40,091 nucleotides of DNA from Synergistaceae bacterium (GTDB taxonomy: Bacteria > Synergistota > Synergistia > Synergistales > Synergistaceae), in NCBI GenBank assembly GCA_030533085.1, contig JAUNJZ010000023.1, forward strand, positions 1-40,091, written 5' to 3'. Made by a program: the position numbers and the translations under genes. Positions 1 to 40,091 of this stretch are shown here, one piece after another (position 1 is the stretch's first letter; each line of letters starts with the position of its first letter). A model generated the notes under the pieces. It saw only the letters and a list, made by a program, of their open reading frames with translations. It did not search any database and was not told the DNA's origin.

Positions 1-51
1 CGAGCGCGTAGTGGACTTTCACCACCTAGTTGTTGACCATGCCGGGCGCAC
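1..51 (-). mobile_element. 5' end of a group II intron inserted in the glycerate kinase gene
   Basis: Read on the minus strand from position 51, the sequence begins with GTGCGCCCGGCATGG and continues with GGTGGTGAAAGTCCAC. This matches the 5' boundary (GUGCG) and early domain I of bacterial group II introns as I know them. The homology to glycerate kinase starts exactly at 52, so 51/52 is the intron-exon junction. The rest of the intron, including any reverse transcriptase, lies outside the window. It is antisense to the kinase gene, so it could not splice from the kinase mRNA. An assembly join at a multicopy intron is the alternative. Confidence 0.72.
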
Positions 52-23794: not shown

Positions 23795-25301
23795 TTTTCT
23801 TTTCCTCCCTTGTCAGCGTCTTCCAGAATGAAGCGCAGGAACATATCATTATCAGCGAGAAGGGCATCGCGGCCGCGAGCGATACTGTCTGGAGGTTTTG
23901 CAGCCCGCCGGTGAGCAGGAGCACCGCGGCGAGCGCCCCCATCAGCACCCCCCATACGACCATTCTGCCGTGGCCGGGGTTGAGATCTCCGTTCGTGGAA
24001 TACATCGCGAGCACGAAGGTCCCTGAATTGGCGGAGGTAACGAAGAAGGTGACGATCAGCACCAGCATGACGACCGACATTATCTGCCCCAGCGGATAGT
24101 AGCTGTACATGTTGAATATACCGACCGAAATATCTTTCAGCACCTCAGCGGAGACGGCGATTTTTCTGACGACCTCAAGATGCAGCGCGGAGGTTCCGAA
24201 GATGGCGAACCAGGTGAAGCTGCCGAGGGCGGGGACGATGAGCACGCCGCTCACAAACTCCCTTACTGTGCGTCCGCGAGAAATCCTTGCCACGAAGGAG
24301 CCGACGAAGGGCGCCCAGGATATCCACCAGGCCCAATAGTAGAGCGTCCAGCTGTCAAGGAAGGAGGAATATTCCCCGCCGTATGGGGCGAGCGTAAAGC
24401 TTTCCCTGACAAGGCCGCTGATGAAGTCTCCAAGTCCGGTCATGAAAGCGTTCAATATAGCGAGCGAGGGGCCGACCGCGAAGAGCGATACCATGAGCAG
24501 CAGGCAGACCCACAGGTTGAAATCCGCCACCCTTTTTATCCCCTTTTCTATGCCAAGCGCCGCCGAGCCTGTGTAAAGGACGGCGAGGGCGGCGATAATA
24601 ATCACCTGTACCACTGTCTCCTTCGGAATGCCGAAGAGCATGTTAAGGCCGCTGTTGAGCTGCAAAGTGCCAAGCCCGAGAGATGTCGTTATGCCGGCAA
24701 GCGTCGCGAATATTGCCAGTATATCGACCGTCTTGCCGAATGCGCCGCGCACCATATCTTCGCCGACGAGCGGGATAAAGATGGAGCTGATAAGCCCCGG
24801 AGTGTTGCGGCGGAACTGATAGTAAGCGAGCGGCATCGCTATGACGGAGTAGCCGGCCCAGGGATGCAGCCCCCAGTGGAAGAAGGATATCTGCATGGCG
24901 TCTCTGGCGGCCTCTATCGAGCCGGGGGCCGCGCCGAAGGGGGTCGAACCGAAGTGAAAAAGCGGCTCCGCCGCGCCGTAGAATACAAGCCCCACCCCCA
25001 TGCCGGCGGAAAAGAGCATCGCAAACCATGATACATTGCCGTATTCGGGACGGGAATCCTCCGGCCCGAGCCGCACCTTTCCAAAGCGGCTCAACGCGAC
25101 GACGATGCAGAATACGACGAATATATTCATTGTGAGCATGTAGCCCCAGCCGTAATATTTCGTCAGTCCGCCGTTGAGGGCTTTGGCGAAAGAACCGAAG
25201 CTTTGAGGAGAGATAAGCCCCCAGAGTACGAGGGCGACGGTGATCGCGATGGAAATTATATATACTGTGTTGCTTTTGGAAGAGCTGTTTTTTTCTATCA
25301 T
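23769..25301 (-). CDS. BCCT-family transporter (betaine/carnitine/choline)
   Basis: A secondary transporter (510 aa) with about 12 membrane segments. The N-terminal segment and LGPEDSRPEYGNVSWFAMLFSAGMG (in two pieces) are typical, and the family signature WTLYYWAWWISWAPFVGSFVARISRG spans about residues 315-340 (tryptophan-rich helix, WW at the core). Family members import betaine, choline or carnitine. The ATG at 25301 has AAAGGAG 11 nt upstream, a long spacing. It directly follows the component B reductase genes, so betaine import for reductive cleavage is the best guess. Confidence 0.93.
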   Translation of the reverse strand: MIEKNSSSKSNTVYIISIAITVALVLWGLISPQSFGSFAKALNGGLTKYYGWGYMLTMNIFVVFCIVVALSRFGKVRLGPEDSRPEYGNVSWFAMLFSAGMGVGLVFYGAAEPLFHFGSTPFGAAPGSIEAARDAMQISFFHWGLHPWAGYSVIAMPLAYYQFRRNTPGLISSIFIPLVGEDMVRGAFGKTVDILAIFATLAGITTSLGLGTLQLNSGLNMLFGIPKETVVQVIIIAALAVLYTGSAALGIEKGIKRVADFNLWVCLLLMVSLFAVGPSLAILNAFMTGLGDFISGLVRESFTLAPYGGEYSSFLDSWTLYYWAWWISWAPFVGSFVARISRGRTVREFVSGVLIVPALGSFTWFAIFGTSALHLEVVRKIAVSAEVLKDISVGIFNMYSYYPLGQIMSVVMLVLIVTFFVTSANSGTFVLAMYSTNGDLNPGHGRMVVWGVLMGALAAVLLLTGGLQNLQTVSLAAAMPFSLIMICSCASFWKTLTREEKKNEDDRGCS

Positions 25302-25374
25302 TGCGCAACTGGCTCCTTTCGCAGCGTTTTTGCCGCGGAGGGCCGGAATACGGCTCCCCGCGGCTGCCTGTAGA

Positions 25375-26685
25375 CTAAATATTTACCTTGAATACCTCGG
25401 GAGCCTCTATATCTTTTGCGAGAGAATCCAGAGCTACGCCGACTCTGTGATAGCGGAGCGTCCATTCTTCATCTTTCGAGAGAGTGGGGTCGCCGAGCGG
25501 GTAGGGGACGGAGACAGTGGGAACGATTCTGTTGGAGCCTACGGTTTTTGCCACGTCGATGAGGTTGCACATTACCACGACAGGGAAGCCAGCGCGTTCT
25601 ATTTCTTTAGCCATCGTTGCGCCGCAACGAGTGCAGGTTCCTCAGGTGGCGGTGAGGACCACGGCGTCAACCTTCGCCTGTTTCAGCTCCGCCGCTATCT
25701 CTTTTCCGAATTTCGCCGCGTAGTTCTGCGTCGTGCCGGTGCCTACCGTAACGTAATAGTAATCGTAGAGCTTCGCGAATTTGCCCTCTTTTTCATAGAC
25801 GCGCATAGCGTCAAGAGGAATGCCGCGGTCGGGAACGGCGCACATGGCCTCCGGGTCGAAGCCTGCGTGTATCGTCTTGTATTCGCCGGCGGGAAGGCTG
25901 TCCATACCGGAGATATTATACTTGCCCCACTTCTGCGCCGAGGCGCTCTGAATGCGGTCGGGGTTGTCCGAGGGGACTACGCCGCTCGTGGAGACGAGCG
26001 CTATCGTGCATTTAGACAGATCCTTCACTGCCTCCGCCGGCGGAATGCGGTCTGTCTTCGGAATGACAAGCTCTGTCTGGAATGGCTCGCCGTTCAGCTT
26101 TTTCAGCAGCATGTCGATGACGCGGTCCGCGGCCATCACGCCGCCCGGCGCGGGGATCTCGCTGCGTATGCCGCGCGGGAAATAGCCCTCTTCGGCGGCG
26201 GAAAGCAGCTTCTCGCCTTTGGCCAGCTTTTCAGCGTACTTCGCCATCAGCGTGAGGTCTGCCTTCATGAAGGTCGCTTTGCGCCCTCCGCGGAAGATAA
26301 GACAATCAGCCTTATATTCTTCAACTCCCGGATTCTCCTCGTTCATCGACGAAATGACGGGAACATTGTAACGCGCCGCTACCGCCTTGCAGACAAGGCC
26401 GCAGCCGACGCCGTAGCGCCCGGCCATGAATGCCGGCCCGGCGAAGAATATGTCGAAATCCCTGCCGTCCAGCCAGGCGAATATCTCCGCAAGCGCCTCT
26501 TCCGTGTGATTCGTGATGTAATTGTCGCCGCACACGATGGTATTTGTCACTTCTACATCCGGCATCATGCCGTTGAGCATCATCGAACAGCCTATGGGGG
26601 CGTCGTGGAAAATCGGCCTGCTGTCCGCCGCGTCCTCGCCTCCGACCTGTCCGAAAAACTGATTTATATAATGTATGGCTTTCAT
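25375..26685 (-). CDS. Glycine/sarcosine/betaine reductase component B, selenoprotein subunit (GrdB/GrdF/GrdH type), UGA = selenocysteine
   Basis: The substrate-binding selenoprotein of Stickland-type reductases that cleave C-N bonds of glycine, sarcosine or betaine. The frame is interrupted at TGA 25642-25644, but homology continues without a shift: before it VVLTAT, after it GTCTRCGATMAKE, giving the family motif U-G-T-C-T-R-C. The full product has 436 aa with Sec at 348, the usual length. A stem-loop suited for Sec insertion follows the UGA. The real stop is TAG at 25375. The upstream gene encodes the partner subunit, 14 nt away. The BCCT transporter downstream favours betaine, hence GrdH, but the subtype is inference. 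Components A and C are not in the window. Confidence 0.93.
25614..25630 (-). promoter_or_regulatory. Candidate bacterial SECIS stem-loop
   Basis: On the minus strand, 11 nt after the UGA, TCGTTGC and GCAACGA form a perfect 7-bp stem with a GGC loop, about 18-21 nt beyond the UGA. Distance and the G in the loop fit SelB-recognised elements. Confidence 0.65.
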
Positions 26686-26699
26686 CTGTTTCGCCCCCC

Positions 26700-28007
26700 T
26701 TAGAAATCAGCGCAGCTTCTGCGCGAGTAGCCGCTGATGTGGTTCGCGCAGAACATCCCGTTGTTTTCCATCACGCAGCTGCCGTCGGGATTGATACAGC
26801 CCTCCCAGCCGCCGGAGTTTCCGTCGCGCGCGAGCGCTTCAAGCTCTCCGATGACCTCCATCGCCGGCAGCTCGTAGAACTGCGAGACATTTCCGGTCGA
26901 GACGAGAGCGTCAGTGGCGGGATTCATCGAAACCAGCGGCTGAGAAGCGCCGTCGCGCCCCGTCGCCTCGTCCGATATGCCTATCGTTTTGATTCCGAGC
27001 CGTTCAAGCTCTACAAGCATCGCGGTATAATCGACGTCCGGGTTGCCGTAGCCCTCTTCCGCGACCACCGCTCCCTTTGCCCCGACTGCGACGGCTATCT
27101 GCCCCGCCATCTGCACGCAGCGCACCTTTTCCTCCATCTTCGGATTCAGCGTGGAAAGAATCACGCCGAGGAAATTTATTGTCTTGCCGTGCTGCGCGTA
27201 GAGGCGCTTTATCATCGGGTTTGTGGAAAATTCGTAAGTCGATATCTTTGACGAGCTGGGCATGAAGCTCCCCGATACCAGACAGCCGTCAAGGAATTCG
27301 TTTGGATGCATGAAGGTAGGCAGCATACGGTTGCCGTCCCAGCCATATACGAGGGTGTTGTAGCCGAGAGCCTCCATCTGCGTCTGCGGCTGGAGCACGT
27401 AGACGACGCCGGGGAGCTTCTTCACCTCTTCGCCGCGCGCATCCAGCGGCGGCAGCTCGTAAACATCCAGCGTATCCGGCTCCAAATCGCGGATACACTG
27501 CGCTATATGCTCCGCGAGACGCAGCCCCGCCCAGCGTATAGCGTGATTTCTCTTCTGCTGCTCGCGCTGCTCGTCAAGCTCGTCCGTATCCGCGACAAGC
27601 ACCAGATTCGGCATATCGCCCCATATCGTGTAATGCTGATAGTGGCCTCCCATGTCGATCAGCCCATCCTGAAAGCCGCCCCAGTGCCTGCCGACCGTCA
27701 GCAGAGTCGCCCCATCGATGACATGCGTCCGCCCCATCCCCGCCTGGCCGAGCGGAGACGTCACGCCGGGATAAGCCCCCTCGCCGCCATTCACCTTGCA
27801 GCGAAATTCGACGGAATCCTTCACAGGGCAGAGCCTGACCATATCGCCGGGGCGAACTATCTTCAGCTCAGCCTCCGTGATATGCCTGTCCTCGCGGACG
27901 ACGCGAAGCGCCTCCTCTGCGTTCACGGTAAGAACGCCGCCGCGACAGGCCGTTTCGCCGCCAAAGACGATATCTTTGACCTTAAAGCTGCCTATTTCCA
28001 GTCTCAT
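26700..28007 (-). CDS. Glycine/sarcosine/betaine reductase component B, proprotein subunit (GrdE/GrdG/GrdI type)
   Basis: The 435-aa precursor of the alpha and beta chains of component B, which is cleaved internally to make a pyruvoyl group that binds the substrate amine (family knowledge). Family features: MRLEIGSFKVKDIVFG at the start, RTHVIDGATLLTVG, FQDGLIDMGG, LVLVADTDELDEQREQQKRN and a conserved C-terminal EEGYGNPDVDYTAML. Cys242 in HPNEFLDGCLVSG is the candidate residue for pyruvoyl formation; I recall Cys242 being used in Clostridium, but the alignment is from memory. GGAGG lies 6 nt before the ATG. First gene of the cluster; if the betaine subtype is right it is GrdI. Confidence 0.92.
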   Translation of the reverse strand: MRLEIGSFKVKDIVFGGETACRGGVLTVNAEEALRVVREDRHITEAELKIVRPGDMVRLCPVKDSVEFRCKVNGGEGAYPGVTSPLGQAGMGRTHVIDGATLLTVGRHWGGFQDGLIDMGGHYQHYTIWGDMPNLVLVADTDELDEQREQQKRNHAIRWAGLRLAEHIAQCIRDLEPDTLDVYELPPLDARGEEVKKLPGVVYVLQPQTQMEALGYNTLVYGWDGNRMLPTFMHPNEFLDGCLVSGSFMPSSSKISTYEFSTNPMIKRLYAQHGKTINFLGVILSTLNPKMEEKVRCVQMAGQIAVAVGAKGAVVAEEGYGNPDVDYTAMLVELERLGIKTIGISDEATGRDGASQPLVSMNPATDALVSTGNVSQFYELPAMEVIGELEALARDGNSGGWEGCINPDGSCVMENNGMFCANHISGYSRRSCADF

Positions 28008-28059
28008 ATTATTCCTCCTTCATAAATTCTTTATTATTGAGCCGCGATTTACATGTGAA

Positions 28060-28089
28060 AATATATACTTTCGCTCCGTTCAAATACAA
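28060..28089 (-). promoter_or_regulatory. Candidate promoter of the component B cluster
   Basis: On the minus strand TTGTAT is followed by TATATA after 16 nt (or TATATT after 18 nt), 53-58 nt before the start of the first reductase gene. Confidence 0.45.
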
Positions 28090-28109
28090 TGAGGAAAAGG
28101 TGGAAGCCT

Positions 28110-28130
28110 CTGTCACGTTTTGCATGACAG
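28110..28130. promoter_or_regulatory. Candidate operator between reductase cluster and pgm
   Basis: An inverted repeat CTGTCA-9 nt-TGACAG lies just upstream of the -35 box of the reductase cluster and within the shared divergent region with pgm. The binding factor is unknown. Confidence 0.45.
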
Positions 28131-28211
28131 CGTAATAAGTCAATCGCGCATCGGCCGTTTTTGCGCTATTATTATCTATATTGCCGGGGCACGGCGAAAG
28201 GAGAGATTTGT

Positions 28212-29819
28212 ATGTCTGAACATCCTGCGATAAACATTCCAAGGCTGATGACGGCCTATTATACCGAAAGACCGGATATGGAAATAAAAGAGCAGCGCGT
28301 GTCATTCGGCACGTCCGGACACAGAGGCTCGTCGCTGAAAGGGAGCTTCAACGACGACCATATAGCGGCAATAGCGCAGGCGATATGCGAATACAGGCTG
28401 GAGCGCGGCATAAACGGGCCGCTGTTCATGGGCATGGACACGCACGCGCTGTCAGAGGCGGCGCTGCGCAGCGCCGCGGAGGTATTCGCGGCAAACGACG
28501 TCGAGCTGCGTATGCAGGAGGGCTTTTCCTACACGCCGACCCCCGTCATATCGCACGCGATCCTCAACTGGAACAGGCAGAAAAACGCCCCCGCCGCGGA
28601 CGGCGTAGTCATAACGCCGTCGCACAACCCGCCAGGCGACGGCGGCTTCAAATACAATCCGCCAAGCGGCGGCCCGGCCGGAACAAACGTCACGAAGCTG
28701 ATAGAAAGACGCGCGAACGAGCTGATAGAAAACGGCTTAAAGGGGCTGAAGCGCGTAAGCTTCAAAGAGGCGCTGTCACGCGGCAGCGTGCGCTTCATCG
28801 ATTACATAGCGCAATACACGGCGGAGCTGGAAGAAATCATAGATATGAAGGCCATAGCCGCATCGGGGCTGAAAATAGGGGCCGACCCGCTCGGCGGCTC
28901 CGGCATATTTTTCTGGGAGCCGATAGCGGAGCGCTACGGGCTTGACATCGAAGTGGTAAACAAAAGCGTCGATCCGACCTTCTCATTCATGCCGCTCGAC
29001 CGCGACGGCAAGGTGCGCATGGACTGCTCCTCGCCGTGGGCGATGGCGAAGCTCGTCGCGCTCAAAGATAAATACGACATCGCATTCGGCAACGACCCTG
29101 ACTACGACCGCCACGGCATAGTGACAAAGGAGGGACTGATGCAGCCGAACGCCTACCTCGCCGCAGCTATAGAATACCTCTTCACGCACCGCCCGCTCTG
29201 GAAGCCCTCCGCGATGGCCGGCAAAACGCTCGTCTCAAGCTCCATGATAGACCGCGCGGCGGCGGGAGCGGCGCGCTCCGTCTACGAAGTGCCCGTCGGC
29301 TTCAAATGGTTCGTAGACGGGCTGCTCGCCGGAACGCTCGCATTCGGCGGAGAGGAAAGCGCCGGAGCCTCCTTCCTGCGCAAAGACGGCTCTCCCTGGA
29401 GCACGGACAAAGACGGCTTCATAATGAGCCTTCTCGCGGCGGAAATAACGGCAGTCACCGGCAGCTCCCCATCGGAGCACTATAAAAAAATGACGGAGCG
29501 CTTCGGCGTCCCGTACTACTCGCGCAAAGACGCCCCCGCAACGCGCGAGGAAAAGGAAAAGCTCAAAAAGCTCTCCCCCGCGGATGTGACGGCGGAGATG
29601 CTGGCAGGAGAAAAGATAACGGCGAAGCTGACCAACGCCCCCGGCAACGGAGCGCCGATAGACGGCCTCAAGGTAATCACGGAAAACGGCTGGTTCGCCG
29701 CCCGCCCCTCCGGCACGGAAGATATCTGCAAAATCTACGCCGAAAGCTTCAAAAGCGAAGAACATCTGGCCGCGATAAACGAAGAGGCGCGCCGGATAGT
29801 CTCAAAGGCGACAGCCTGA
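28212..29819 (+). CDS. pgm: Phosphoglucomutase (alpha-D-glucose phosphate-specific)
   Basis: Interconverts glucose 1-phosphate and glucose 6-phosphate in the cytoplasm; needed for sugar nucleotides and storage glucan. The 535-aa protein is of the E. coli Pgm type: [16 protein letters not shown] near the N-terminus, the phosphoserine loop [23 protein letters not shown] (S in TPSHN), the metal-binding DPDYDRHG, the sugar loop [11 protein letters not shown] and the C-terminal phosphate-binding [16 protein letters not shown]. An in-frame start upstream at 28161 exists, but AAGGAG stands 8 nt before the ATG at 28212, which I chose. A hairpin terminator follows. Confidence 0.96.
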
Positions 29820-29827
29820 CGAAAAGG

Positions 29828-29852
29828 AAGGCGCGGCTATACGCCGCGCCTT
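29828..29852 (+). terminator. Terminator of pgm
   Basis: A perfect 10-bp stem (AAGGCGCGGC / GCCGCGCCTT) with a 5-nt loop, 9 nt after the pgm stop; a short T run follows. Confidence 0.8.
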
Positions 29853-29951
29853 TATCCCCGCTGTTATTGATTCATCCGGCAGCCCTTACGAATGTTCTGC
29901 GAGAGAGATTATATCAGCTTATATTCATGTGACTCACAAAATGTTTATCTG

Positions 29952-30377
29952 TTATGTTTCAGACGACACTCTTTCTATCTTATCCCATGCCTGATCCAGA
30001 ATATTTTTTATCAGCTTCACTCTTTCTTCATTGACTTCATAACGTATAATTTTATTGGCGACTTTTCTTTCAATTATCCCTGAATTTCTGGCCGTCGGGG
30101 ACAGTATTATATATTGAATATCGTGACTTTTTTCTTCGGAGACGGGCGTTTGTCCGAACGGAATCCCATGCGGATTATCGCTCTGGCCGGACAGGTACGG
30201 CACGGTAGTTCCCAGGACCTCCGCCAGCTTTTCCATATTCCCAAGGTCAGGAGTGAAAATGTTCCTTTCCCAAAGACAGACGGTTTGCCTTGCCACGCCT
30301 ACAAGCTCGGCTAACTTTTCCTGGTTTTTTATCCCTGCCTTTTTGCGAAGAGCTTTTATCTTGTCTCCAATTCCCAT
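29952..30377 (-). CDS. XRE-family transcriptional regulator
   Basis: A 141-aa protein with an N-terminal lambda-Cro/XRE helix-turn-helix (residues about 5-60; LAELVGVARQTVCLWERN followed by TPDLGNMEKLAEVLGT) and a C-terminal region of about 70 residues that I do not recognise (helical, charged, with KIIRYEVNEERVKLI). It is divergent from the GTPase operon and marks the beginning of the AT-richer accessory segment. Repressor of the consensus promoter at 30475-30503 and of its own gene is the likely role (inference). Close to pgm, which is convergent with it across the terminator. Confidence 0.88.
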   Translation of the reverse strand: MGIGDKIKALRKKAGIKNQEKLAELVGVARQTVCLWERNIFTPDLGNMEKLAEVLGTTVPYLSGQSDNPHGIPFGQTPVSEEKSHDIQYIILSPTARNSGIIERKVANKIIRYEVNEERVKLIKNILDQAWDKIERVSSET

Positions 30378-30474
30378 TTCAGATCCACTCCCATGTACAA
30401 CCTTACCAACATGACAACAAACAAAAAAGCATGTGTAGTTTTATAAATAAATAAAATGACATGTATAAAATAAA

Positions 30475-30503
30475 TTGACATATTGCATATGGCAAAATAT
30501 AAT
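30475..30503 (+). promoter_or_regulatory. Consensus sigma70 promoter of the GTPase operon
   Basis: TTGACA, a spacer of exactly 17 nt, TATAAT: a perfect match to the consensus. Transcription would start near 30510, leaving a leader of about 180 nt before the chosen start at 30691. The leader includes CTCCC / GGGAG (about 30530-30555), a weak stem. Confidence 0.85.
30483..30495. promoter_or_regulatory. Candidate XRE operator inside the promoter spacer
   Basis: The palindrome TTGC-ATATG-GCAA lies between the -35 and -10 boxes. Copies of TGACAT (at 30456-30461 and 30476-30481) flank it. Such a position would let a bound repressor exclude RNA polymerase. The assigned repressor is the divergent XRE protein (inference). 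Confidence 0.5.
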
Positions 30504-30690
30504 CTAGTCAAGCTTTGCATCTATTACTCCCGCGATAGTTTATAAAAGGGAGCGGCAGCATAAAAGAGCTTTTTCTATGAGCGCCGATAACGGTAATAAC
30601 TACAGATTTACGGCAGGCGGTTCTGTTTTTCAGTTGAATTTAACTGCGGGGCATAACATTATAAAGAAATGTAAAGAGAGGAAGATGACA

Positions 30691-31803
30691 ATGTCGGCAA
30701 TCACAACTATCAACGTATCGATGCTGGGGCCAAGCAGGTGCGGAAAAACATCAATGCTGGCTTCGATGCTTAACAGGGCACAGGATGTGTTTCACGGAAT
30801 TACTGGAATGGGAGATGTATCGCTTGGCATTTCAGATGGCGATGTTTTTACGAGAACAAATATAGATAGAGCATACCAAAGTCTCGTTGGATATTACAAC
30901 CGCAAAGATACCAAAGAACCGTTTCTCAACGATTCAGAGGGGATTGGCGTCCTTGGTACCGGTGTTTCAAATACATATAAATTCACAATGAAAGCTCGTG
31001 GATCGGACATGGTGGATTTTAACTTCTATGATTTCCCCGGCGGGTATTTTATGGAAAACGCCTGTAAAAATTACGGAGATGCCGATATTGATAATGCTCA
31101 TAAGAAACTTGCAAAGTCGGATATTATTTACATTACGATAGATACCCCTTATTTAATGACTGGCGATAAAGATATAAATGAAAGACGCAATATCTCTGAA
31201 TCTATCTGTAAGTATGCGTGCAAGGTCCTTAAGGAGGAGAACACGAATATGACAGTAAAAAAGACTGTCATTTTTGTGCCTATGAAATCTGAGAAGTGGA
31301 TTATAAATTATGACAATAATAATAATAATCATATGAGCATATCGGATAGTGGCTGCAAGAAAGTCTTGGAGAAAGTTAAGGAAACGTATGCCACGTTGAT
31401 AGAATTTGTCAAAGAAAGCGAAGGGCTTCTTTTATGGGGTTACATGCCGCTTGCGACGCTTGGGGGCGTGCGTTTTAAAGAATTCTCCGAAAAAAAAGAC
31501 AACGACGACAATAAGTTGGAACTCTTTGAGTATGTACCAGGAAATTTTACTTCTCCAGCAATGATCAATTCAAAATATCTACTGACGTACGCCATTTGGA
31601 TTGGAATTCTCGATATTTGTTTTAAAGTTCAGCTTGCAGTCGACAAAATAGGATTTTTTGAGCGGATGTTTACTGACAATTACGAAAGAGGGATGTTGTT
31701 GCTGAATTACTTTGGAGGATTGCGGAAGGCATTAAATGCTGATGCGTCGTTTGGAAAAATGTTTCGTAGAGATAGTCTTCATGATGGTTGCGGAATATTT
31801 TGA
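30691..31803 (+). CDS. P-loop GTPase-like protein 1 of an accessory locus
   Basis: A predicted NTPase of 370 aa. The Walker A motif GPSRCGKTS is at residues 13-21, the G3-like motif DFPGG at 114-118 and a G4-like motif VPMKSEKW at 196-203 where the usual NKxD is degenerate. The protein is clearly paralogous to the next gene: both share ID-x-PYLM, RN(I/M)SE and FK-x-FSEK. No transmembrane segment stands out. The frame reaches 30577, but GAGG lies 9 nt before the ATG at 30691. A run of six asparagines occurs at 209-214. The layout recalls the paired 'double GTPase' families described in prokaryotic conflict systems, but I cannot confirm that by search. Confidence 0.78.
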   Translation: MSAITTINVSMLGPSRCGKTSMLASMLNRAQDVFHGITGMGDVSLGISDGDVFTRTNIDRAYQSLVGYYNRKDTKEPFLNDSEGIGVLGTGVSNTYKFTMKARGSDMVDFNFYDFPGGYFMENACKNYGDADIDNAHKKLAKSDIIYITIDTPYLMTGDKDINERRNISESICKYACKVLKEENTNMTVKKTVIFVPMKSEKWIINYDNNNNNHMSISDSGCKKVLEKVKETYATLIEFVKESEGLLLWGYMPLATLGGVRFKEFSEKKDNDDNKLELFEYVPGNFTSPAMINSKYLLTYAIWIGILDICFKVQLAVDKIGFFERMFTDNYERGMLLLNYFGGLRKALNADASFGKMFRRDSLHDGCGIF

Positions 31804-31869
31804 GGTAGTCTTCATGATGGCTGCAGAATGTTTTATTAGTATACAGGCAAATTGTGAAAGGAGATATGT

Positions 31870-32943
31870 ATGATGTTATCAGGATTTCTTGAAACAATAA
31901 AAAACGGAGCTTGCAATGTTATACGCGGAGACAAAGTCTGCGAAGTGCGCGTCGTTATGCTTGGCGCGCGAGGCGCGGGCAAGTCAAGTATGCTTACCGC
32001 GATGTATGAACGTTTCCGGCAATCAAAGATGTCTTCCGACTATGACAAGCATATCAGCATTAACGGCGATGAGGCTACGAATAACGTAATGAAAAGTCAA
32101 TATGATGCCCTTTGCAAGATGGCTAACAGTGACGGAGACATCACTAACGCTATAAAACCATCTACAGGTGAACGGACATATAAATACACAATCTCGGATG
32201 ATACTAAATCCGGCGAAGATTCGCGGATTGTCGTATCATTCACCGATTATCCCGGAGGTTGGCTGACAGATAATCATAGATCACATGTGAAGGAAATGAT
32301 AAAAGAAGCGCACGTGCTGCTTGTCGCAATTGACGCTCCCTATCTGATGGAAGAAGGAGGCGACTATAACAATAAACGCAATATGTCAGAAGAATTCACC
32401 AAATTGATAGAAGAGGCGTGGCGCGACTCCACTGACGTTCGCAGAATGGTGCTGCTTGTACCAATTAAATGTGAACGGTATTGCAAGTCTAATGAAGAGA
32501 AAAAATGTCTTGTAAGGCGTGTGAAAAAGGCGTATTCTGAGTTTATCGAAGAACTAAAGGACAATCAGAATTATTGTGGAGTTTTCATCGTACCTATCGA
32601 GACCACAGGCACTATTCATTTTAAGCAGTTTTCCGAAAAGCCAGCTGACGGTATACCACTTAAGCAGTTTTCCGAAAAGCCAGCTGAGTATATACCACTT
32701 TCCGTCTTTGAAAGTACGAGAAAACCGGGGCATGACGGATATGCTCCCAGGAATTGCAGCCAGCCGCTTAGATTTGTGTTCTCATACGCGCTGTCCGCAC
32801 TTATTCAACAGGATCAAAAAGGCGTGCGCGGTGCGCTTATTAACGTTTTCAATATCAACAGGCATTTCAAGAATGCCCTGCAAAATATTGCAGGAGGATG
32901 CTCTGGCGAGGTACTGAACCCTATGTGTAAAAGGGGGAATTAA
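31870..32943 (+). CDS. P-loop GTPase-like protein 2, paralogue of its neighbour
   Basis: A 357-aa predicted NTPase. Walker A is GARGAGKSS (32-40), the G3-like motif is DYPGG (126-130), followed by AIDAPYLM (153-160), RNMSE, and VPIKCERY (197-204) at the G4 position. The strong parallel to protein 1 indicates a duplicated GTPase pair that may form a heterodimer. AAGGAG lies 6 nt before the ATG. A tandem duplication of 13 residues (KQFSEKPA..IPL) is present near 252-277. It lies 66 nt after protein 1 and 3 nt before the next gene, so the genes are one operon. The function is unknown. Confidence 0.8.
   Translation: MMLSGFLETIKNGACNVIRGDKVCEVRVVMLGARGAGKSSMLTAMYERFRQSKMSSDYDKHISINGDEATNNVMKSQYDALCKMANSDGDITNAIKPSTGERTYKYTISDDTKSGEDSRIVVSFTDYPGGWLTDNHRSHVKEMIKEAHVLLVAIDAPYLMEEGGDYNNKRNMSEEFTKLIEEAWRDSTDVRRMVLLVPIKCERYCKSNEEKKCLVRRVKKAYSEFIEELKDNQNYCGVFIVPIETTGTIHFKQFSEKPADGIPLKQFSEKPAEYIPLSVFESTRKPGHDGYAPRNCSQPLRFVFSYALSALIQQDQKGVRGALINVFNINRHFKNALQNIAGGCSGEVLNPMCKRGN
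32623..32700 (+). repeat. In-frame 39-bp tandem duplication
   Basis: Units 32623-32661 and 32662-32700 match at 36 of 39 bases and encode KQFSEKPADGIPL and KQFSEKPAEYIPL. The first GTPase has a single related copy (KEFSEK), so the second unit is a recent duplication. Confidence 0.9.
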
Positions 32944-32946
32944 GGT

Positions 32947-33886
32947 ATGGAATCTATGAAATCGTTGTATATAAAAAGTTGCGGCGAAAGCATATCAAAG
33001 GACTATGTCTGGGTAAACGCTGAAAATGGTTCCGTTGGCTTTAAGTCAGAAGGTGATAGCGAAGTAATAAGGAAAAATGACGATCTTAAAATGGGGCTGG
33101 AGTATGTTGACAACGATTCGTCAAAAAGTTTGATTATTTATCAGGACAGGAATGATATATGGCTTTTCCTCGCTATTTACGATGAGTATGATAAAAAAGA
33201 TTTGGCAGGACGAGGGGTTTTTTACAAGGCTGCAATGTGTTTTGAGAGGGTGTGTAATACATCCGAGAAATTAGTAAGATCTATTGCCGCCTGCTGGTTA
33301 GAGGATGATGCTTCCATCATAAAACTTTTTCGCGAGTGCATTACTTTCAGCGATGAAACAGATTCAGGGTTCGCCATTTGTTACGAAAAACTTATGGAAG
33401 GGATTAAAGAAGCGGCTAAAGGTTTTGACAAAGAATCAGCTGAAGCCGCCACGATTAAAGAGTCACACAAAGGCCTGTTTCGCAGCGGGAAAATAACAGA
33501 GTGTTCTCAGAAAAAAATGGCCGAAATACTTCGTAAGGAACAGCTGCCGGATACAAATGGATACATTGTTATAATGTCCTCATATCCTTTCAGCGAGGAA
33601 TGTCTGACAAGATGGGGTACGTGGCTGGCGCTGGTTGATGATAACAGCAGTGATGATGAGTTCAAAAAGGCACAAAAAATAAAAAAAAGAAAACATAATA
33701 ATAGATCCAATAGGACGAAAAAAGAAAGAAAAAACTGCCATTATTGCGGGAGCTATCATCGTATTCGCGATTTGTGCAGTTGGGTATGTGCTTTGGCCTA
33801 AGGAGCGTGAAGAAAAGGATCTTCGCGGTAAAACAGACATGACAAATCTGACAATTTCTGAAGATAAAAAACAGGAGGGGTTCTAA
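32947..33886 (+). CDS. Unrecognised protein with a C-terminal membrane anchor, frame changed at an A8 run
   Basis: The first 247 residues are soluble and match no family I recognise. In frame zero the gene ends at 33801 after an odd basic, Cys-rich tail. If one A of the A8 run at 33681-33688 is skipped, translation continues for 65 more residues: a basic stretch (GRKKKEKT), one hydrophobic segment (AIIAGAIIVFAICAVGYVLW) and a charged tail, ending in TAA at 33884-33886. That stop overlaps the start of the M48 gene as TAATG, and AGGAGGGG within this tail is the M48 ribosome site. This strongly suggests the anchored form (about 312 aa) is the real or alternate product. Causes: sequencing error, recent mutation, or programmed slippage. 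Confidence 0.72.
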
Positions 33887-34728
33887 TGAGTATTGCTTTT
33901 GAAAAATATTCACATCCGCTTGATATTCAATACCTTGAAAATATAAAAAAGCTTCCCATGCTTGATAAAGCACTGAAGAAGTATCTTGAAAAATTCGACG
34001 AAGTATCGTACAGAACTCTCTATCTTGGAAGCTCGGTCAAAGTCTCAGAACGGCAGTTTCCAAAAATACATGAGAGGCTTTCGAAGAGCTGTAATATTCT
34101 CGGCATCGACGAGCCGGAGCTTTTCATAAGCGGCAGCGCAGAAGCAAACGCCTTTACCTTTGGAGACACTAGCCCGTTAATAGTTATCTCAGCGGGGCTT
34201 CTCTATAGGGTCACGGAAGATGAGTTAAATGCGATTATTGCTCATGAATGCGGGCATATTGCAGGGCGACACTTGCTATACCACTCTTTGGGCAATGCCA
34301 TTCTTTATGGTTCTAGCAGGTTTTTAGGAAGTTTTGTGGCAGGCGGTCTGTTGATGAAATTCTTTCAGTGGATGCGCGCCAGTGAGTATAGCTGTGACCG
34401 TGCTGCTTCACTGGCAATGGGCAGTAGTCAGCCGGTACAGAGCGGATTGTTGAAGCTCGCTACAGGTAATGCAGGGCTTCTGGAGAAGATCGATTTGGAA
34501 GAGTGCTTTAAACAGGCAGATACTCTTGATAAGTACACAGAAGATACATGGAAAAAGTTTATCTCCTTTATGTCAGTCACATCCAAGATGACCCATCCGT
34601 TCCTGATCCATAGGGTCAGGGAGTTGACTCGATGGACAGCGACTGAAGATTACAAAAATCTATTGTGTGACGATGATGGGAACAAACTTGATCTTGAAAA
34701 CCCAAGCAGCCCGATCCAGTTTATGTAA
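33886..34728 (+). CDS. M48-family metallopeptidase
   Basis: A zinc protease of the M48 (HtpX/Ste24/YcaL) family, 280 aa. The catalytic motif is HECGH (H120, E121, H124), and the third zinc ligand is E167 in RASEYSCDRAA. A family-typical AFTFGDTSPLIVISAGLL segment precedes the catalytic helix. Two hydrophobic stretches (about 136-160) could touch or cross the membrane, but there is no N-terminal signal peptide. Translation is coupled to the upstream gene through TAATG with AGGAGGGG as ribosome site. Its presence beside GTPase-like and membrane proteins suggests it is the effector or processing protease of the locus (inference). Confidence 0.88.
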   Translation: MSIAFEKYSHPLDIQYLENIKKLPMLDKALKKYLEKFDEVSYRTLYLGSSVKVSERQFPKIHERLSKSCNILGIDEPELFISGSAEANAFTFGDTSPLIVISAGLLYRVTEDELNAIIAHECGHIAGRHLLYHSLGNAILYGSSRFLGSFVAGGLLMKFFQWMRASEYSCDRAASLAMGSSQPVQSGLLKLATGNAGLLEKIDLEECFKQADTLDKYTEDTWKKFISFMSVTSKMTHPFLIHRVRELTRWTATEDYKNLLCDDDGNKLDLENPSSPIQFM

Positions 34729-34768
34729 TTCAGGCGATCGGACGTTTTGCCGCTACAAGATTCTCGTT

Positions 34769-34813
34769 CCGTTTTATCTGACCTGAAGGCCCTGTACTGG
34801 TCAGATAAAACGG
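34769..34813. repeat. Perfect 15-bp inverted repeat
   Basis: CCGTTTTATCTGACC and its exact reverse complement GGTCAGATAAAACGG are separated by 15 nt. It lies 41 nt after the M48 stop. No T run follows on either strand, so it is not an ordinary terminator; it may be a mobile-element trace, a protein-binding site or a transcript-end structure. Confidence 0.75.
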
Positions 34814-34815
34814 CC

Positions 34816-35043
34816 ATGCCAACGATAGGCTTATCCATTCCAAGCCTGCGAAGAGATGGATCCTTATCAAAGATAGCAGAATGGAAAGGTTAAAAGATAA
34901 AAATGAGCTTCTTGTTTCCCTTATTGGAAGAGAAAGTGTAAAAAGGCTCTGAAAGACGCTGTTGCATCGATACCGCAGGCGGAGCGGGAAGAAATGATAA
35001 CCCTCTTCGTCCGCCAATTTATAGAGAACGAATTACCGAATGG
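34816..35043 (+). pseudogene. Degenerate small gene remnant
   Basis: Three short open pieces in different frames lie one after another. The first reads from ATG 34816 (MPTIGLSIPSLRRDGSL and on) and stops soon after IAEWKG. The second frame reads MERLKDKNELLVSLIGRESV and stops; adding one base to its A5 run joins it to KKALKDAVASIPQAEREEM, ending PNG and TAA at 35043. The joined text looks like a helical protein but I do not recognise it. I read it as a small gene broken by A-run indels, or sequence errors in the same style as the break at 33681. Confidence 0.45.
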
Positions 35044-35065
35044 CTAAAGGTGGAGTCCCGCCGTA

Positions 35066-35121
35066 GGGGGCTAATATGCGAAGACGTGCGGTTCGAGCTT
35101 GCGCAGAAGGATTAGCGCCCC
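35066..35121 (+). other. Imperfect hairpin upstream of the DUF697-like gene
   Basis: GGGGCTAAT pairs with ATTAGCGCCCC (2-nt bulge) and, inside, TGCGAAG pairs with CTTGCGCA (1-nt bulge), around a 14-nt loop. It stands 31 nt before the ATG at 35153, in the leader, and could be a structured RNA. I do not recognise the class. Confidence 0.5.
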
Positions 35122-35152
35122 ATAGAACAAAAATGGAAGCGGAGGTGTAATT

Positions 35153-35728
35153 ATGGGATCAGAAAGAGCGCTCGTGAAGCATTTGGGGAGGATGCTGTCA
35201 AGTTATTACAATTTATCTGAAGATGATATGAAAATAGTATTGGATCATAGCTATGCCGGCGCGGCTACGTCTATATGTCCTGTCCCTATTCTAACATTGG
35301 GTTTAAATCTTGTGAATCAAATTGCTCTGTACAAAAGGATCAATAGCTATTTAGGCATACGAACAATGTCGTTCGAACTTCTAAAAGTCATTGCCGGAAT
35401 AATAGCGTCTCAGGTGATGGGAGCGCTGGCCGCCTATCCGGCTGTAATAGGCGGGATCATGTGCGGGGAGCTCCTGAAGTTCATTCCTGGTGCGGGGAGC
35501 GTCTGTGGTATACTTATCGGAGCCAGCGTTTACGGCGCCATTACATTTGTGATGGGGGTTGTTTATCTGGCAGCAATTAAAAAACTGGTAAATACAAATA
35601 AAGAGTTGACAAAAGAGAATATACAAGAAGCTCTCAAAGATCTGGATGATAAGGAAACGATTAAGCAAATTTTTGAAGAAGCAAAGAAAGTCCATAGCAG
35701 CGCTAAAGAAAGGGCAAAAACTGTGTAA
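35153..35728 (+). CDS. DUF697-like integral membrane protein
   Basis: A 191-aa protein with three hydrophobic regions (about 38-58, 77-105 and 112-142) rich in Gly, Ala and Pro (GAATSICPVPILTLGLNLVNQ, then IPGAGSVCGILIGASVYG), followed by a charged helical tail. This resembles the membrane domain DUF697 (YcjF-like), which is often fused to or encoded beside GTPases; the assignment is from pattern memory. GGAGG lies 7 nt before the ATG. The gap of 424 nt to the M48 gene holds an inverted repeat and gene remnants, so it may have its own transcript, but neighbours and family habit link it to the GTPase pair. Confidence 0.72.
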   Translation: MGSERALVKHLGRMLSSYYNLSEDDMKIVLDHSYAGAATSICPVPILTLGLNLVNQIALYKRINSYLGIRTMSFELLKVIAGIIASQVMGALAAYPAVIGGIMCGELLKFIPGAGSVCGILIGASVYGAITFVMGVVYLAAIKKLVNTNKELTKENIQEALKDLDDKETIKQIFEEAKKVHSSAKERAKTV

Positions 35729-36072
35729 TTCAGCAACAGATTATTTCAAGGATGACAATAAGTTCAATGCGGCCTGGCAAAAAAAATGGACAAGCTAAAG
35801 AAAACAGGAATACTCGTATGCTCCTAGGACAACGCGAAATAAATGGTTATAAGCTATGATAGACGTTGAAATCGACTGGAATCAGCCTATTATGTGCATT
35901 TAGGCAATAATGGCGCGCTTATATACTAGAAATCTCTTGCGCGGGAAGCTCTCCGCAGACTGATAGGTACGCTCTGCATGTGTACGTTATTTTGTCATCT
36001 GCATCGTTTGAATTGGGAAGGAGGACATGAAGTCATATGTCGGTAGGGTACTTATTCATGAGGGGTGAAAAG
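35729..36072. other. Intergenic segment with coding remnant
   Basis: About 340 nt without an intact gene. A short frame from 35727 reads DYFKDDNKFNAAWQKKWTS and stops at 35798; it looks like the tail of a lost gene. A TATACT near 35922 has no good -35. AAGGAGG at 36018-36024 precedes short frames, but the downstream gene more likely starts at 36073. Confidence 0.4.
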
Positions 36073-37038
36073 GTGAAAACATTAATCAGATTGATATTCA
36101 TTGTGTTCTCGCTGTTTGCTTTTCCGGAGTCTGTCCATTGCGGTGAAATCCGCGATCCCTTAGATTCGGAGCTTTCCGCGCGAATAAACGCCGCTGCCGG
36201 AGGCGCTGTCGAAACGACGTTTACCGAGGAGATTGGGAAGAGATGGAAGGAGCGTCTTGATCGAGCTTATCGCTCTTTGCACGATTCTTTGCATGGAGAC
36301 GTCAAAAGTTGCCTGGAACGCTCTCAGTCCGAATGGGTAAAGATGAAAGAAGAGGATGAAGAATTTTTTCCAAATTTTCATATCAGCGACAAGAGGGCCG
36401 TATTGTACGAGGCTCGCCGCCGCTGCGCTAGCTTCCGGCTGCGAGCGCTTATGCTGGAAGATGCGGCAGGAAACGGCGCGCTGCGCTTTACCGGAAGCGA
36501 TATCTACAGGTATGACGGCATGGGGCGGCGGGGGCCCAATATAATGGACGAATGGTTTGTTGAGCTTTATAACGACGCCCCCAATGACACGCAGAAGCTG
36601 AAGCTTCTGGCAATGGCGAAGGATGCGTGGAATAAGCGCTGGAGACACGCCAATTTTTACATGATGGAACGTCTCGTAAAAGAGAAGATGCGGTCTGCCA
36701 GGATAGACGCTCTGGCGATGGAGTTTCCTGGCCTCAACGCATATCTGCGGATTCCAGAGCCTATTGACGGCTTTTACCGGCATACGGTAAAAAATAGGGA
36801 GCGGTTTTTAAGTGCGGAGACAAAATTCTGGCGTTCAGCCTATGGGGAACTGGCGTCGGCATGGCAATCTTTACGTCTGGAAAGGCAGCTCGCATTGGAG
36901 ATTGAGGAGTGCGCGTTTACCGGGGTACCGCGGAAGGAGCGGCAGCGCAAAATGTATCAATTTAAGAAGTCCGACGCATATATTTATGGAAAATTGCGGA
37001 ATAATATCTTTGACCGAGAAGGAGGGGATGGGCAATGA
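36073..37038 (+). CDS. Exported helical protein 1 (LprI/DUF1311-like, paralogue of next gene)
   Basis: A 321-aa secreted protein. The GTG at 36073 gives a clean signal peptide (MKTLIRLIFIVFSLFAFPESVHC) and has GAGGGG 7 nt before it; longer frames (ATG 36037 or 36058) would place charged residues before the signal. The mature protein is helical. It shares an ordered set of motifs with the next gene: W-x-ER-x3-A, a segment ending F-x-R-x-RALMLE, an aromatic Y-x2-Y stretch, and a C-terminal AE-x2-(F/L)W-x2-Y. The spacing of W, R and A resembles the lysozyme-inhibitor-like LprI/DUF1311 domain; this is weak inference. The stop overlaps the next start (ATGA). Confidence 0.7.
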   Translation: MKTLIRLIFIVFSLFAFPESVHCGEIRDPLDSELSARINAAAGGAVETTFTEEIGKRWKERLDRAYRSLHDSLHGDVKSCLERSQSEWVKMKEEDEEFFPNFHISDKRAVLYEARRRCASFRLRALMLEDAAGNGALRFTGSDIYRYDGMGRRGPNIMDEWFVELYNDAPNDTQKLKLLAMAKDAWNKRWRHANFYMMERLVKEKMRSARIDALAMEFPGLNAYLRIPEPIDGFYRHTVKNRERFLSAETKFWRSAYGELASAWQSLRLERQLALEIEECAFTGVPRKERQRKMYQFKKSDAYIYGKLRNNIFDREGGDGQ

Positions 37039-37913
37039 AGACGTTTTCTCGGAATCTCATTATTTTTACCGTATGCATCGCCCTTTTGCAATTTGCGCGT
37101 CCCTGGCTTGAAAGGCAGGAAAGGATCGATTTAACGACTATTGATGAAGCATTGGACAGGGATTTTGTTTCGCGCTATTACGACGTGCGCGAAGCGGAAG
37201 ATATGAATTCTCTGATCGGGGAACTTTTCTTTAAATGGAACGAACGTATGCAAAAGGCGGAAGCAGAATACGATACGAATCCTTTTACCGACGATGCGCT
37301 GCGGAGAGAGGAGAGCGAAAGCTTTGCGCGTTGCTTAAAAGCTGACGGTCAGTTTCTGCCGGCGCCTGTAAAAGTATATAATGGAAAACCATTCAATTTC
37401 CCGCCTTTTCTTTATATCACGATGAGGGAGGCGCGTTTCCGCGCGCTGATGCTGGAAGAGCTTCACCGGCTCTGCGCCGGAGAGAGTATCACCTTTGATG
37501 TTCGTCGTTATGATTTTTACCTCTATACTGTAAAAAACGACAAGCTGGATGAATATCTTACAGAACGTTATGACGGTTCCATCATGATGCTGAAAGAGAA
37601 ATCGCTTGTATTGTCCGACGTTATCGAGATGTGGCAGGAGAGATATGACGTCGTTTATTCGAAAGTGCTGAAGATGCTTGAAATGTATCCGCGCTGGAAG
37701 CCATCTGAAAACGACGTAACTGCTGCTGCGGGATTTGTTCGCGCTGAGGCGTTGTGGTCGGAATATGCAATGAGCAGTTATCAGCATATATCGGAAGAAT
37801 TTGGCATACAGTATGCTGGCGAGATACTGCTGCATAACATCCGTTTCCGCACGCTGCTTTTAGAGGAAGCGCTTGCAATGCGGCCAGGAGGCAAATGGGC
37901 AGCTGATATATAG
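37035..37913 (+). CDS. Exported or membrane-anchored helical protein 2, paralogue of the preceding gene
   Basis: A 292-aa protein. An N-terminal hydrophobic segment (residues about 8-22, NLIIFTVCIALLQFARPWL) is a signal peptide or anchor without a clear cleavage site. The rest is helical with motifs in the same order as in protein 1: KWNERMQKAEAEY, then ITMREARFRALMLEEL, YLYTVKNDKLDEYL and, near the C-terminus, RAEALWSEYAMSSYQ and IRFRTLLLEEALA. It begins inside the previous stop codon (ATGA), so the two are a coupled pair with related roles in the envelope. No function is assigned. Confidence 0.72.
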   Translation: MKTFSRNLIIFTVCIALLQFARPWLERQERIDLTTIDEALDRDFVSRYYDVREAEDMNSLIGELFFKWNERMQKAEAEYDTNPFTDDALRREESESFARCLKADGQFLPAPVKVYNGKPFNFPPFLYITMREARFRALMLEELHRLCAGESITFDVRRYDFYLYTVKNDKLDEYLTERYDGSIMMLKEKSLVLSDVIEMWQERYDVVYSKVLKMLEMYPRWKPSENDVTAAAGFVRAEALWSEYAMSSYQHISEEFGIQYAGEILLHNIRFRTLLLEEALAMRPGGKWAADI

Positions 37914-37936
37914 CTGCTGACGCAAAAGAAAATATC

Positions 37937-37964
37937 TTTGTTATAGGAGACGATGTGGTACAAT
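37937..37964 (+). promoter_or_regulatory. Candidate promoter of the F420-ligase-like gene
   Basis: TTTGTT, 16 nt, TACAAT, about 43 nt before the ATG at 38007. The -10 is good, the -35 weak. Confidence 0.4.
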
Positions 37965-38006
37965 AAGACGTTGTAAAAAAATCCTTTTTCAGAGAGGAAC
38001 GATCTG

Positions 38007-39188
38007 ATGCGTTACGTTGGAACCGTTTCAAGGGGAATACGCCTCCCGGTCGTCACTAAAGGCGCCGACATTGTAAAGATCATCTCCGACAGCATAATCA
38101 GCGCGGCGGAGTCCGAAAGAGATAAATTCGAGATACGCGACCGCGACGTCGTTGGCGTTACGGAATCGCTTGTCGCCCGCGCGCAGGGCAACTACGTGAC
38201 GCTGGAGGACATATCGCGGGACGTGGCGGAGAAATTCCCGGAGGGCGACGTGGCGGTGATATGCCCGATACTTTCCCGCAATCGCTTTCATCAGCTGCTC
38301 CGCGGCATGGTGAAGGGGATAAAGGGGCATGTCCACATCATACTCACCTATCCGTCGGACGAAGTGGGCAATCAGCTTATAGAGCCGATGAACTACTATC
38401 TCAACAGCTCAAGGCTCTCAGGAGAATGCTTTGACGAAAAGGAATATTACGAAGTGTTCGGAGAATACAAGCATCCCTTCACCGGCGTCGATTACATACA
38501 GCTGTACAAAAGCACAGACCCGGGGCGCGTCAGCATCCACTTTTCAAACAATCCGCTTTCCGCGCTGAAGTTCGCGGATCAGGCGCTCGTCGCCAGCATA
38601 CATGCTCGGAAGATACAGCGCGACATACTTGAAAAGGGCGGCGCGCGGAAGGTCGTGACGATGGACCAGATATGCAGCGCCCCAGTGCGCGACGGGGCGG
38701 GCTACAACGAAGCTTACGGCCTGCTCGGCTCCAACTATACGAACGACGATTCCGTAAAGCTCTTCCCGCGCGACTGCGGCGCTTTCGTCTCGCGCCTCAA
38801 GGCGGAGCTGCGCGCGCGCAGCGGCAAAGATGTAGAGGTGCTCGTCTACGGCGACGGCGCTTTCAAAGACCCGGTATGCGGTATATGGGAGCTGGCCGAT
38901 CCGGTCGTCTCCCCCGGCTACACCGAAGGGCTGGACGGAATGCCGAAGGAGATAAAATTCAAATATGTCGCCGACAACGCCGGAGAAAAAGACCCCGCTC
39001 AGGCTGTGGAAGAGGCGATACGGGCAAAAAGTGCCCTGGATAAATTCGGGCATTCGACGCTCGGCACCACGCCGCGCCGCCTTACCGACTTGATAGGCTC
39101 GCTTTGCGACCTCACGTCAGGCTCCGGCGACAAAGGAACGCCGGTAGTCTATATACAGGGCTACTTCGACAACTATCTCGATGACTGA
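38007..39188 (+). CDS. Coenzyme F420-0:L-glutamate ligase family protein
   Basis: A 393-aa protein of the CofE/FbiB N-domain family (PF01996), whose known members add glutamate to coenzyme F420-0 with GTP. The family N-terminus is present: GADIVKIISDSIISAA, then RDRDVVGVTESLVARAQGNYVTL. It is longer than typical CofE (about 250 aa), with an extra C-terminal part containing VLVYGDGAFKDPVCGIWELADPV and a glycine-rich end. The organism is not expected to make F420, so it may ligate glutamate or another amino acid to a different substrate (inference). GAGGA lies 8 nt before the ATG. The next gene begins 8 nt before its stop, so they are coupled. Confidence 0.85.
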   Translation: MRYVGTVSRGIRLPVVTKGADIVKIISDSIISAAESERDKFEIRDRDVVGVTESLVARAQGNYVTLEDISRDVAEKFPEGDVAVICPILSRNRFHQLLRGMVKGIKGHVHIILTYPSDEVGNQLIEPMNYYLNSSRLSGECFDEKEYYEVFGEYKHPFTGVDYIQLYKSTDPGRVSIHFSNNPLSALKFADQALVASIHARKIQRDILEKGGARKVVTMDQICSAPVRDGAGYNEAYGLLGSNYTNDDSVKLFPRDCGAFVSRLKAELRARSGKDVEVLVYGDGAFKDPVCGIWELADPVVSPGYTEGLDGMPKEIKFKYVADNAGEKDPAQAVEEAIRAKSALDKFGHSTLGTTPRRLTDLIGSLCDLTSGSGDKGTPVVYIQGYFDNYLDD

Positions 39189-39915
39189 GCTTGAAAACGT
39201 ACTGCCGTTCAGCGGCATCGACCCGCGCGGACGCGTAAAATTCTCCGTGCTGCTTGAAATGTTCCAGCAGATGGCGGATACGGACGCCTCGAAATACGGC
39301 CTTTCCGTCCGCCAGACGCTTGAGAACAACATCACCTGGGTGCTGCGCAAATACCGCGTGGATCTTGAGCGCTACCCCACGAAAGAGAGCGGGAATCTGA
39401 CGATAAAAACCTACGCGGAGATATTCCGCAATCTCTTTTCCCTGCGCTCCTTCAAGCTGCGGGATTCGCGCGGCGGCTTCCTCGGCTCCGCCTATACATG
39501 GTGGGTGCTGCTCGACGTCGCGAAACAGCGGCCGATACGTCTCGACAAATGCGAGCTGGTAAACGCCTTTAGGGAACGGTTCTCTGATGAGCTGCCGGCC
39601 GACGTAAAGGTGCCGGAGGCTACGGCTCCCGCAATCGAAGAGCTATGGAAGGTCAGATGGCAGGATCTAGACGTAAACGACCACACCAACCACGCGGTAT
39701 ATTTCAGCTGGGTGCTTGACAGCGTACCGGACGAAGTGCCTGAGAAGATGGTTCCGTCATTCGTAGAGGGAGAATATCTCCACCCGATACCGCGCACGCG
39801 AGTGCGCTGCCTGACGCAGGAAATTCCCTGCGAAGATGGGCGCGCCTTCCTCCATTCGCTGCGCCACGCGGAGGACGAAACGGAATACGCAAAGTTTCTG
39901 TCGAGGTGGCGCTGA
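39181..39915 (+). CDS. Acyl-ACP thioesterase (FatA/FatB-like double hotdog)
   Basis: Releases fatty acids from acyl carrier protein. The 244-aa protein has two hotdog halves: the first begins DPRGRVKFSVLLEMFQQMADTDA, and the second carries VRWQDLDVNDHTNHAVYFSWVLD, the conserved D-x-N-x-H-x-N-x3-Y pattern of bacterial members of PF01643. It overlaps the F420-ligase-like gene by 8 bp and is likely translated with it. Bacterial homologues are common in Clostridia and Synergistota. A hairpin terminator follows 13 nt after the stop. Confidence 0.9.
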   Translation: MTELENVLPFSGIDPRGRVKFSVLLEMFQQMADTDASKYGLSVRQTLENNITWVLRKYRVDLERYPTKESGNLTIKTYAEIFRNLFSLRSFKLRDSRGGFLGSAYTWWVLLDVAKQRPIRLDKCELVNAFRERFSDELPADVKVPEATAPAIEELWKVRWQDLDVNDHTNHAVYFSWVLDSVPDEVPEKMVPSFVEGEYLHPIPRTRVRCLTQEIPCEDGRAFLHSLRHAEDETEYAKFLSRWR

Positions 39916-39927
39916 AAATATATTCTT

Positions 39928-39973
39928 AAAAGCGGCCCTGAAGCAGCTGGAATGGCTTAGGGGCTGCTTTTTT
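39928..39973 (+). terminator. Terminator of the thioesterase operon
   Basis: AAAAGCGGCCCT pairs with AGGGGCTGCTTTT (one G-T pair, one bulge), followed by a T run. A competing stem AAGCAGC / GCTGCTT is nested. Confidence 0.75.
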
Positions 39974-40035
39974 GTCGGCAGCGTATTCCGTGATTATTCC
40001 CAAACATTCGATTCTGATGGGCGTGGCGAAAAAAC

Positions 40036-40083
40036 GGGTCGGTTGCCAAAGTAATCGCGAGAATGCAGATGTAAGCGCGACCC
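40036..40083. repeat. Partial palindromic element at the window end
   Basis: GGGTCG and CGACCC are 36 nt apart. No gene is visible from 39978 to 40091. It may be an extragenic repeat cut by the window edge. Confidence 0.3.
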
Positions 40084-40091
40084 CCGCGTTT

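Follow-up and report, generated by a model that had tools for sequence, protein, structure and literature searches.

A conserved TGACAT-containing candidate operator and an exact consensus promoter between a divergent XRE regulator gene and a GTPase cassette in a Synergistaceae bacterium

The window, a stretch of 40,091 nucleotides from a Synergistaceae bacterium, represents one whole contig (C32) of a 2.63 Mb genome. It contains a gene for an XRE family regulator and, facing away from it, a cassette of genes for two GTPases, a protein of unassigned function, an M48 family metallopeptidase and a small hydrophobic protein (Table 1). The 199-bp intergenic stretch that separates the XRE gene from the cassette's first ATG is A+T-rich, with 32% G+C, and the G+C content of the cassette is 39-44%, compared to 57-59% in its outer neighbors.

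Table 1. Features of the XRE-GTPase locus, with positions in the window.
Feature	Position	Strand	Basis or remark
XRE/HTH_3 regulator, 141 aa, divergent	29952..30377	-	Pfam HTH_3, AlphaFold, Foldseek, homologs
AATAAAATGACAT, upstream copy of 13-bp direct repeat, holds distal half-site	30450..30462	+	Read from sequence
ATGACATGTAT, conserved candidate operator element of the XRE subfamily	30456..30466	+	2 exact genome copies; TGACRYGYWT in homologs
AATAAATTGACAT, downstream copy of direct repeat, runs through -35 hexamer	30469..30481	+	Read from sequence
-35 hexamer TTGACA (6/6)	30475..30480	+	Read from sequence
TTGCATATGGCAA, TTGC-ATATG-GCAA spacer palindrome	30483..30495	+	Judged a chance feature
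-10 hexamer TATAAT (6/6)	30498..30503	+	Read from sequence
5' leader, predicted, ~180 nt	30510..30690	+	No Rfam match, no unusual fold
First GTPase gene, P-loop GPSRCGKTS	30691..31803	+	Homology; below Pfam DO-GTPase2 cutoff
Second GTPase gene, DO-GTPase2 family	31870..32943	+	Pfam PF19993, E=2.1e-7, 31.3 bits vs cutoff 27
Third operon protein, function unassigned	32947..33801	+	Weak collinear similarity to the protein after the GTPase pair in other Synergistales
M48-family metallopeptidase	33886..34728	+	Pfam PF01435, E=3.2e-19; NCBIfam HtpX models below cutoffs
Small hydrophobic protein, last low-G+C cassette gene	35153..35728	+	Strand and composition suggest operon membership

The first GTPase has a longer in-frame ATG at 30577. 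Most of its homology begins only near residue 33-48 of this longer reading, and the GTPases of relatives start just before the P-loop, so that by comparison with these proteins 30691 is a more likely start of the gene than 30577. This start gives a leader of approximately 180 nt, and a leader RNA element was rejected there, as the Rfam search was empty and the fold was unremarkable (z-score -0.25 for 30510..30690). The score of the first GTPase against the DO-GTPase2 model was 17.7 (cutoff 27), yet the protein is homologous to the second GTPase. Paired DO-GTPases are described in predicted conflict systems, 38% of which are reported to have paired copies (PMC7159879). The window operon resembles these GTPase-centric systems in having two paralogous TRAFAC-type GTPases, one of them above the DO-GTPase2 cutoff, so that the characteristic domain, often paired in such systems, is present here. 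A possible difference is that Pfam detected no recognizable GAP1 component in the window; the protein encoded at 32947-33801 has a weak similarity to the one in third place at related loci (hmmsearch E about 0.002-0.004, with a single target only). The M48 metallopeptidase is another difference, as a search of the remaining 187 Synergistota genomes found no close homolog of it (E 1e-20); this would be in keeping with a recent acquisition of the cassette.

Related GTPases were found in 16 other genomes, all belonging to one genus in another family of the order, and no close relatives of the second GTPase were found in named genomes. None of the GTPase loci read had an adjacent XRE homolog, and their neighborhoods differed from that in the window. 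A fixed association of the XRE protein with the GTPase cassette was rejected, the sole XRE match at 17 loci (14 genomes) being distant and ~6 kb away. A phage origin of the cassette was also rejected, with no GTPase match in phage records or viral contigs. In another Synergistales family, a large dynamin-like GTPase gene precedes the GTPase pair and a conserved unnamed protein is encoded after it. The latter protein has a KDxxxR-like motif and often also a hydrophobic stretch and a tail resembling a coiled coil, and the third open reading frame of the window may encode a distant version of it.

The sequence TTGACA-17-TATAAT at 30475-30503 matches the sigma-70 consensus at 12 of 12 positions, and its 17-nt spacer lies within the 16-18 nt spacing of this promoter class. 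The earlier note had described an exact promoter at 30456-30503. The promoter itself was confirmed, but position 30456 is the start of a TGACAT element and not of the promoter. No other 12/12 site occurs within 25000-40091, and exact promoters with 16-18 nt spacing were obtained in 0.04% of dinucleotide shuffles of the 199-bp intergenic region. From the position of the promoter, transcription is predicted to start near 30510.

Pattern searches of the whole genome identified 27 exact TTGACA-16..18-TATAAT sites; the reversed pattern, as a control, gave 0 matches on one strand and 1 on the other. Three relatives had 36, 29 and 19 such sites (reversed controls 0, 0 and 1). As the counts far exceed the reversed controls across genomes, exact consensus sites are meaningful as a class, yet in the genome of the window they are neither rare nor unique. 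Five of the 27 lie directly upstream of tRNA genes and, as a raw count, ~11 adjoin genes for regulators or toxin-antitoxin components, namely three XRE genes (the one in the window among them), two TetR genes and one each for GntR, Rrf2, RelB, HicA (below cutoff), HicB and DUF134. This distribution fits the idea that exact promoters serve genes that are constantly needed or genes that are repressed, and is in line with the general point made earlier that a promoter of this strength is often paired with regulation. The site adjoining the DUF134 gene (G000:C4:23687-23716) precedes a DUF134 / Nitro_FeMo-Co gene, and its spacer holds the perfect palindrome GTGCATATGCAC, of which another copy lies immediately upstream.

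The divergently encoded protein belongs to the HTH_3 family (E=3.5e-11, 43.4 bits vs cutoff 23). In its AlphaFold model the helix-turn-helix is confident over residues 1-70 (10-residue blocks at 81-96 pLDDT), and the C-terminal part, a strand-strand-strand-helix arrangement unrecognized by Pfam, is of lower confidence. The best Foldseek match of the model was the P22 c2 repressor, in its helix-turn-helix domain, with ImmR, SinR and restriction-modification controller (C) proteins among the others; the best NCBIfam similarities, below cutoffs, included RstR and DicA. Matches in viral contigs mainly covered the helix-turn-helix part. Five full-length homologs were identified in 188 Synergistota genomes: a paralog on contig C48 of the window's own genome, one in G015, two in G013 and one in G028. 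The window protein is the most diverged member of this subfamily, with 35-39% identity to the full-length homologs overall and 50-56% in the helix-turn-helix, and the recognition-helix residues A29, R30, Q31 and T32 are invariant in all members, including the window. Candidates by eye for a minus-strand promoter of the XRE gene itself were weak and lacked conserved spacing.

Copies of TGACAT lie at 30457-30462 and 30476-30481, the second overlapping the -35 box. A 10-bp motif, TGACRYGYWT, was defined wholly from the five homologs, with the window left out. The motif was present between the XRE gene and its divergent neighbor in 5 of 5 homologs (~4 independent lineages, G000:C48 and G015 being close relatives), at 69-82 bp from the XRE start, and it was also present in the window. 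TTGACA follows it in four of the five regions, and an exact consensus promoter occupies the same place at C48, G015 and one G013 member (spacers of 16, 16 and 18). In G028 the contig ends soon past TTGACA, and the other G013 member (G013:C3) has kept the operator element with a degenerate promoter. Among dinucleotide shuffles of the intergenic region of the window, 0.56% contained the motif and 0.005% contained it with a following TTGACA.

All five matches to TGACRYGYWT-N(0-10)-TTGACA in the four genomes that carry the subfamily were located in XRE-divergent regions. The other 184 genomes had 28 matches. Nine of these loci were inspected; six lay within long open reading frames, and none of the nine had a homologous XRE arrangement beside it. 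The exact sequence ATGACATGTAT occurs twice in 2.63 Mb, at the window site and at the C48 paralog site, each time between an XRE-subfamily gene and an exact consensus promoter. The suggestion in the earlier note that the TGACAT elements are linked to the XRE protein is thus supported at the level of sequence conservation, at the divergent promoters of this subfamily.

The operators of C48, G015 and G028 consist of two 11-bp quasi-palindromes with a 2-bp gap, e.g. GTCATAATGAC-AT-GTATAATTGAC, the second of which ends inside the -35 hexamer. The two G013 members show this 11-2-11 layout approximately. In the window, the first palindrome has lost its left half and the TGAC cores are 19 bp apart compared to 13 bp in the homologs, i.e. 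6 bp have been added. The window has instead direct repeats of 13 bp, identical at 12 of 13 positions and 19 bp apart, suggesting that its operator drifted from the 11-2-11 layout to this form. The window XRE protein, the most diverged of the subfamily and facing an operator that lacks the left half-site and has six extra bases, may therefore bind differently or weakly. Another XRE gene of this genome, on contig C44 (30905), has a like architecture with another operator: in its divergent region, TTGACA-17-TATCAT is immediately preceded by the palindrome TTTACATTTTATGTAAA.

A different site had been proposed in the earlier note, in which the XRE protein would bind the TTGC-ATATG-GCAA palindrome in the promoter spacer as its operator. 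A palindrome between the promoter boxes is a classical repressor site, and plausible examples are present in the same genome at a TetR gene (TACCT...AGGTA) and at the DUF134 gene. However, arms of at least 4 bp were found in 30% of mononucleotide shuffles of the window's 17-nt spacer, and TTGC-N5-GCAA was absent from all five other XRE-divergent intergenic regions of the homologs found in Synergistaceae. As a positive control, we used the exact promoter of the TetR gene in the window's genome (G000:C40:17328-17357), which has TACCT-N6-AGGTA in its spacer, a likely candidate for an autorepression site. TetR homologs with 41% and 58% protein identity in two relatives have an exact promoter with a related spacer palindrome at the same place. 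These results indicated that spacer operators can be recognized at such distances, and the palindrome of the window was not recognizable in relatives. The palindrome is therefore neither above chance nor conserved with the regulator, the latter being an outcome that the earlier note had named as refuting its proposal, and it was rejected as an operator. A near-identical ortholog of the window XRE protein was not found, which leaves room for a species-specific switch to the palindrome; we nevertheless regard binding there as very unlikely.

Judged by these comparisons, the XRE protein probably represses the divergent GTPase cassette through the TGACAT operator and the -35 region. A strong sigma-70 type promoter would drive the GTPase / M48 peptidase cassette, and the XRE protein would bind a TGACAT-containing operator at about -60 to -29, with ATGACATGTAT (30456-30466) as the distal half-site and the -35 hexamer itself (TTGACAT, 30475-30481) as the proximal one. 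With the repressor bound, the -35 region would be inaccessible to RNA polymerase, and the cassette would stay silent until some inducing signal lifted repression. The XRE protein probably controls its own gene from the same operator as well, given the distance of 73-104 bp between this operator and the start codon of the XRE gene. A sigma-70 promoter with 12/12 consensus should need no activator; repression is therefore favored, and activation of this promoter by the XRE protein is unlikely. The locus would accordingly be a repressor-operator pair of an ordinary kind that leaves a neat footprint in the comparison of relatives.

A further point against repression as proposed here, besides the divergence of the window XRE protein and its altered operator, is that G013:C3 keeps the operator element without a consensus promoter. 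The same homolog would suit a promoter that is constitutive and an XRE protein that is purely autoregulatory, acting at its own promoter. The position of the operator also suits control of the XRE gene, and the tRNA genes behind exact promoters of this genome provide a precedent for constitutive use. However, the proximal TGACAT overlaps the -35 hexamer, where a bound protein should block the divergent promoter, and the operator and exact promoter are kept together in four members, including the window. We consider a constitutive promoter quite unlikely.

The operators of restriction-modification controller proteins are reported to consist of GACTtatAGTC twice with GT between (PMC3115060). The two 11-bp quasi-palindromes with a 2-bp gap in the clearest XRE homologs, where the second reaches into the -35 box, are similar to these C-boxes (PMC3115060), although the core in the homologs is GTCA/TGAC and not GACT/AGTC. 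This layout, clear in three homologs and approximate in the two G013 members, together with the C-proteins among the structural matches of the XRE model, would be consistent with a dual switch, in which a distal dimer helps or tolerates the polymerase and a proximal dimer represses, giving a timed or threshold response and not simple on/off control. We consider this unlikely, as the 11-2-11 layout is no longer present in the window operator, the XRE gene is read divergently, the 141-residue protein has an extra C-terminal part and there is little that activation could add to a perfect promoter. No restriction-modification Pfam family was found among the ten proteins scanned at 29952-39915.

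The preferred reading, repression from the TGACAT operator, has a counterpart in the P22 c2 / SinR / RstR / DicA type of HTH_3 repressor. The window protein shares with these the HTH_3 domain, with P22 c2 as its best structural match, and a divergent strong promoter, beside which the window has its conserved element. It differs in its C-terminal part, unrecognized by Pfam, and in a TGACAT element of its own. No phage genes were seen among the proteins scanned around the window XRE gene.

To our knowledge, few regulators in the phylum Synergistota have defined sites, and the comparison provides a testable candidate operator for an uncharacterized XRE subfamily. Of the two candidate sites in this promoter it also singles out the meaningful one, and it suggests a route for switching on a DO-GTPase-type cassette. 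The cargo behind the homologous XRE promoters is mostly unrelated: an 834-aa secreted protein, two secreted proteins and a Wzz protein. The XRE gene, tandem TGAC operator and exact promoter could tentatively be seen as an exchangeable control module placed before varied accessory cargo in Synergistaceae, this being the GTPase cassette for the window, secreted proteins for three relatives and a Wzz-like chain-length gene for another; we hold this possible, if somewhat doubtful. At three of the homologous XRE promoters, the divergent gene encodes a large secreted protein of unassigned function. Those from G015 and G013 seem to be related in their N-terminal parts, and one of the two has a weak beta-helix match.
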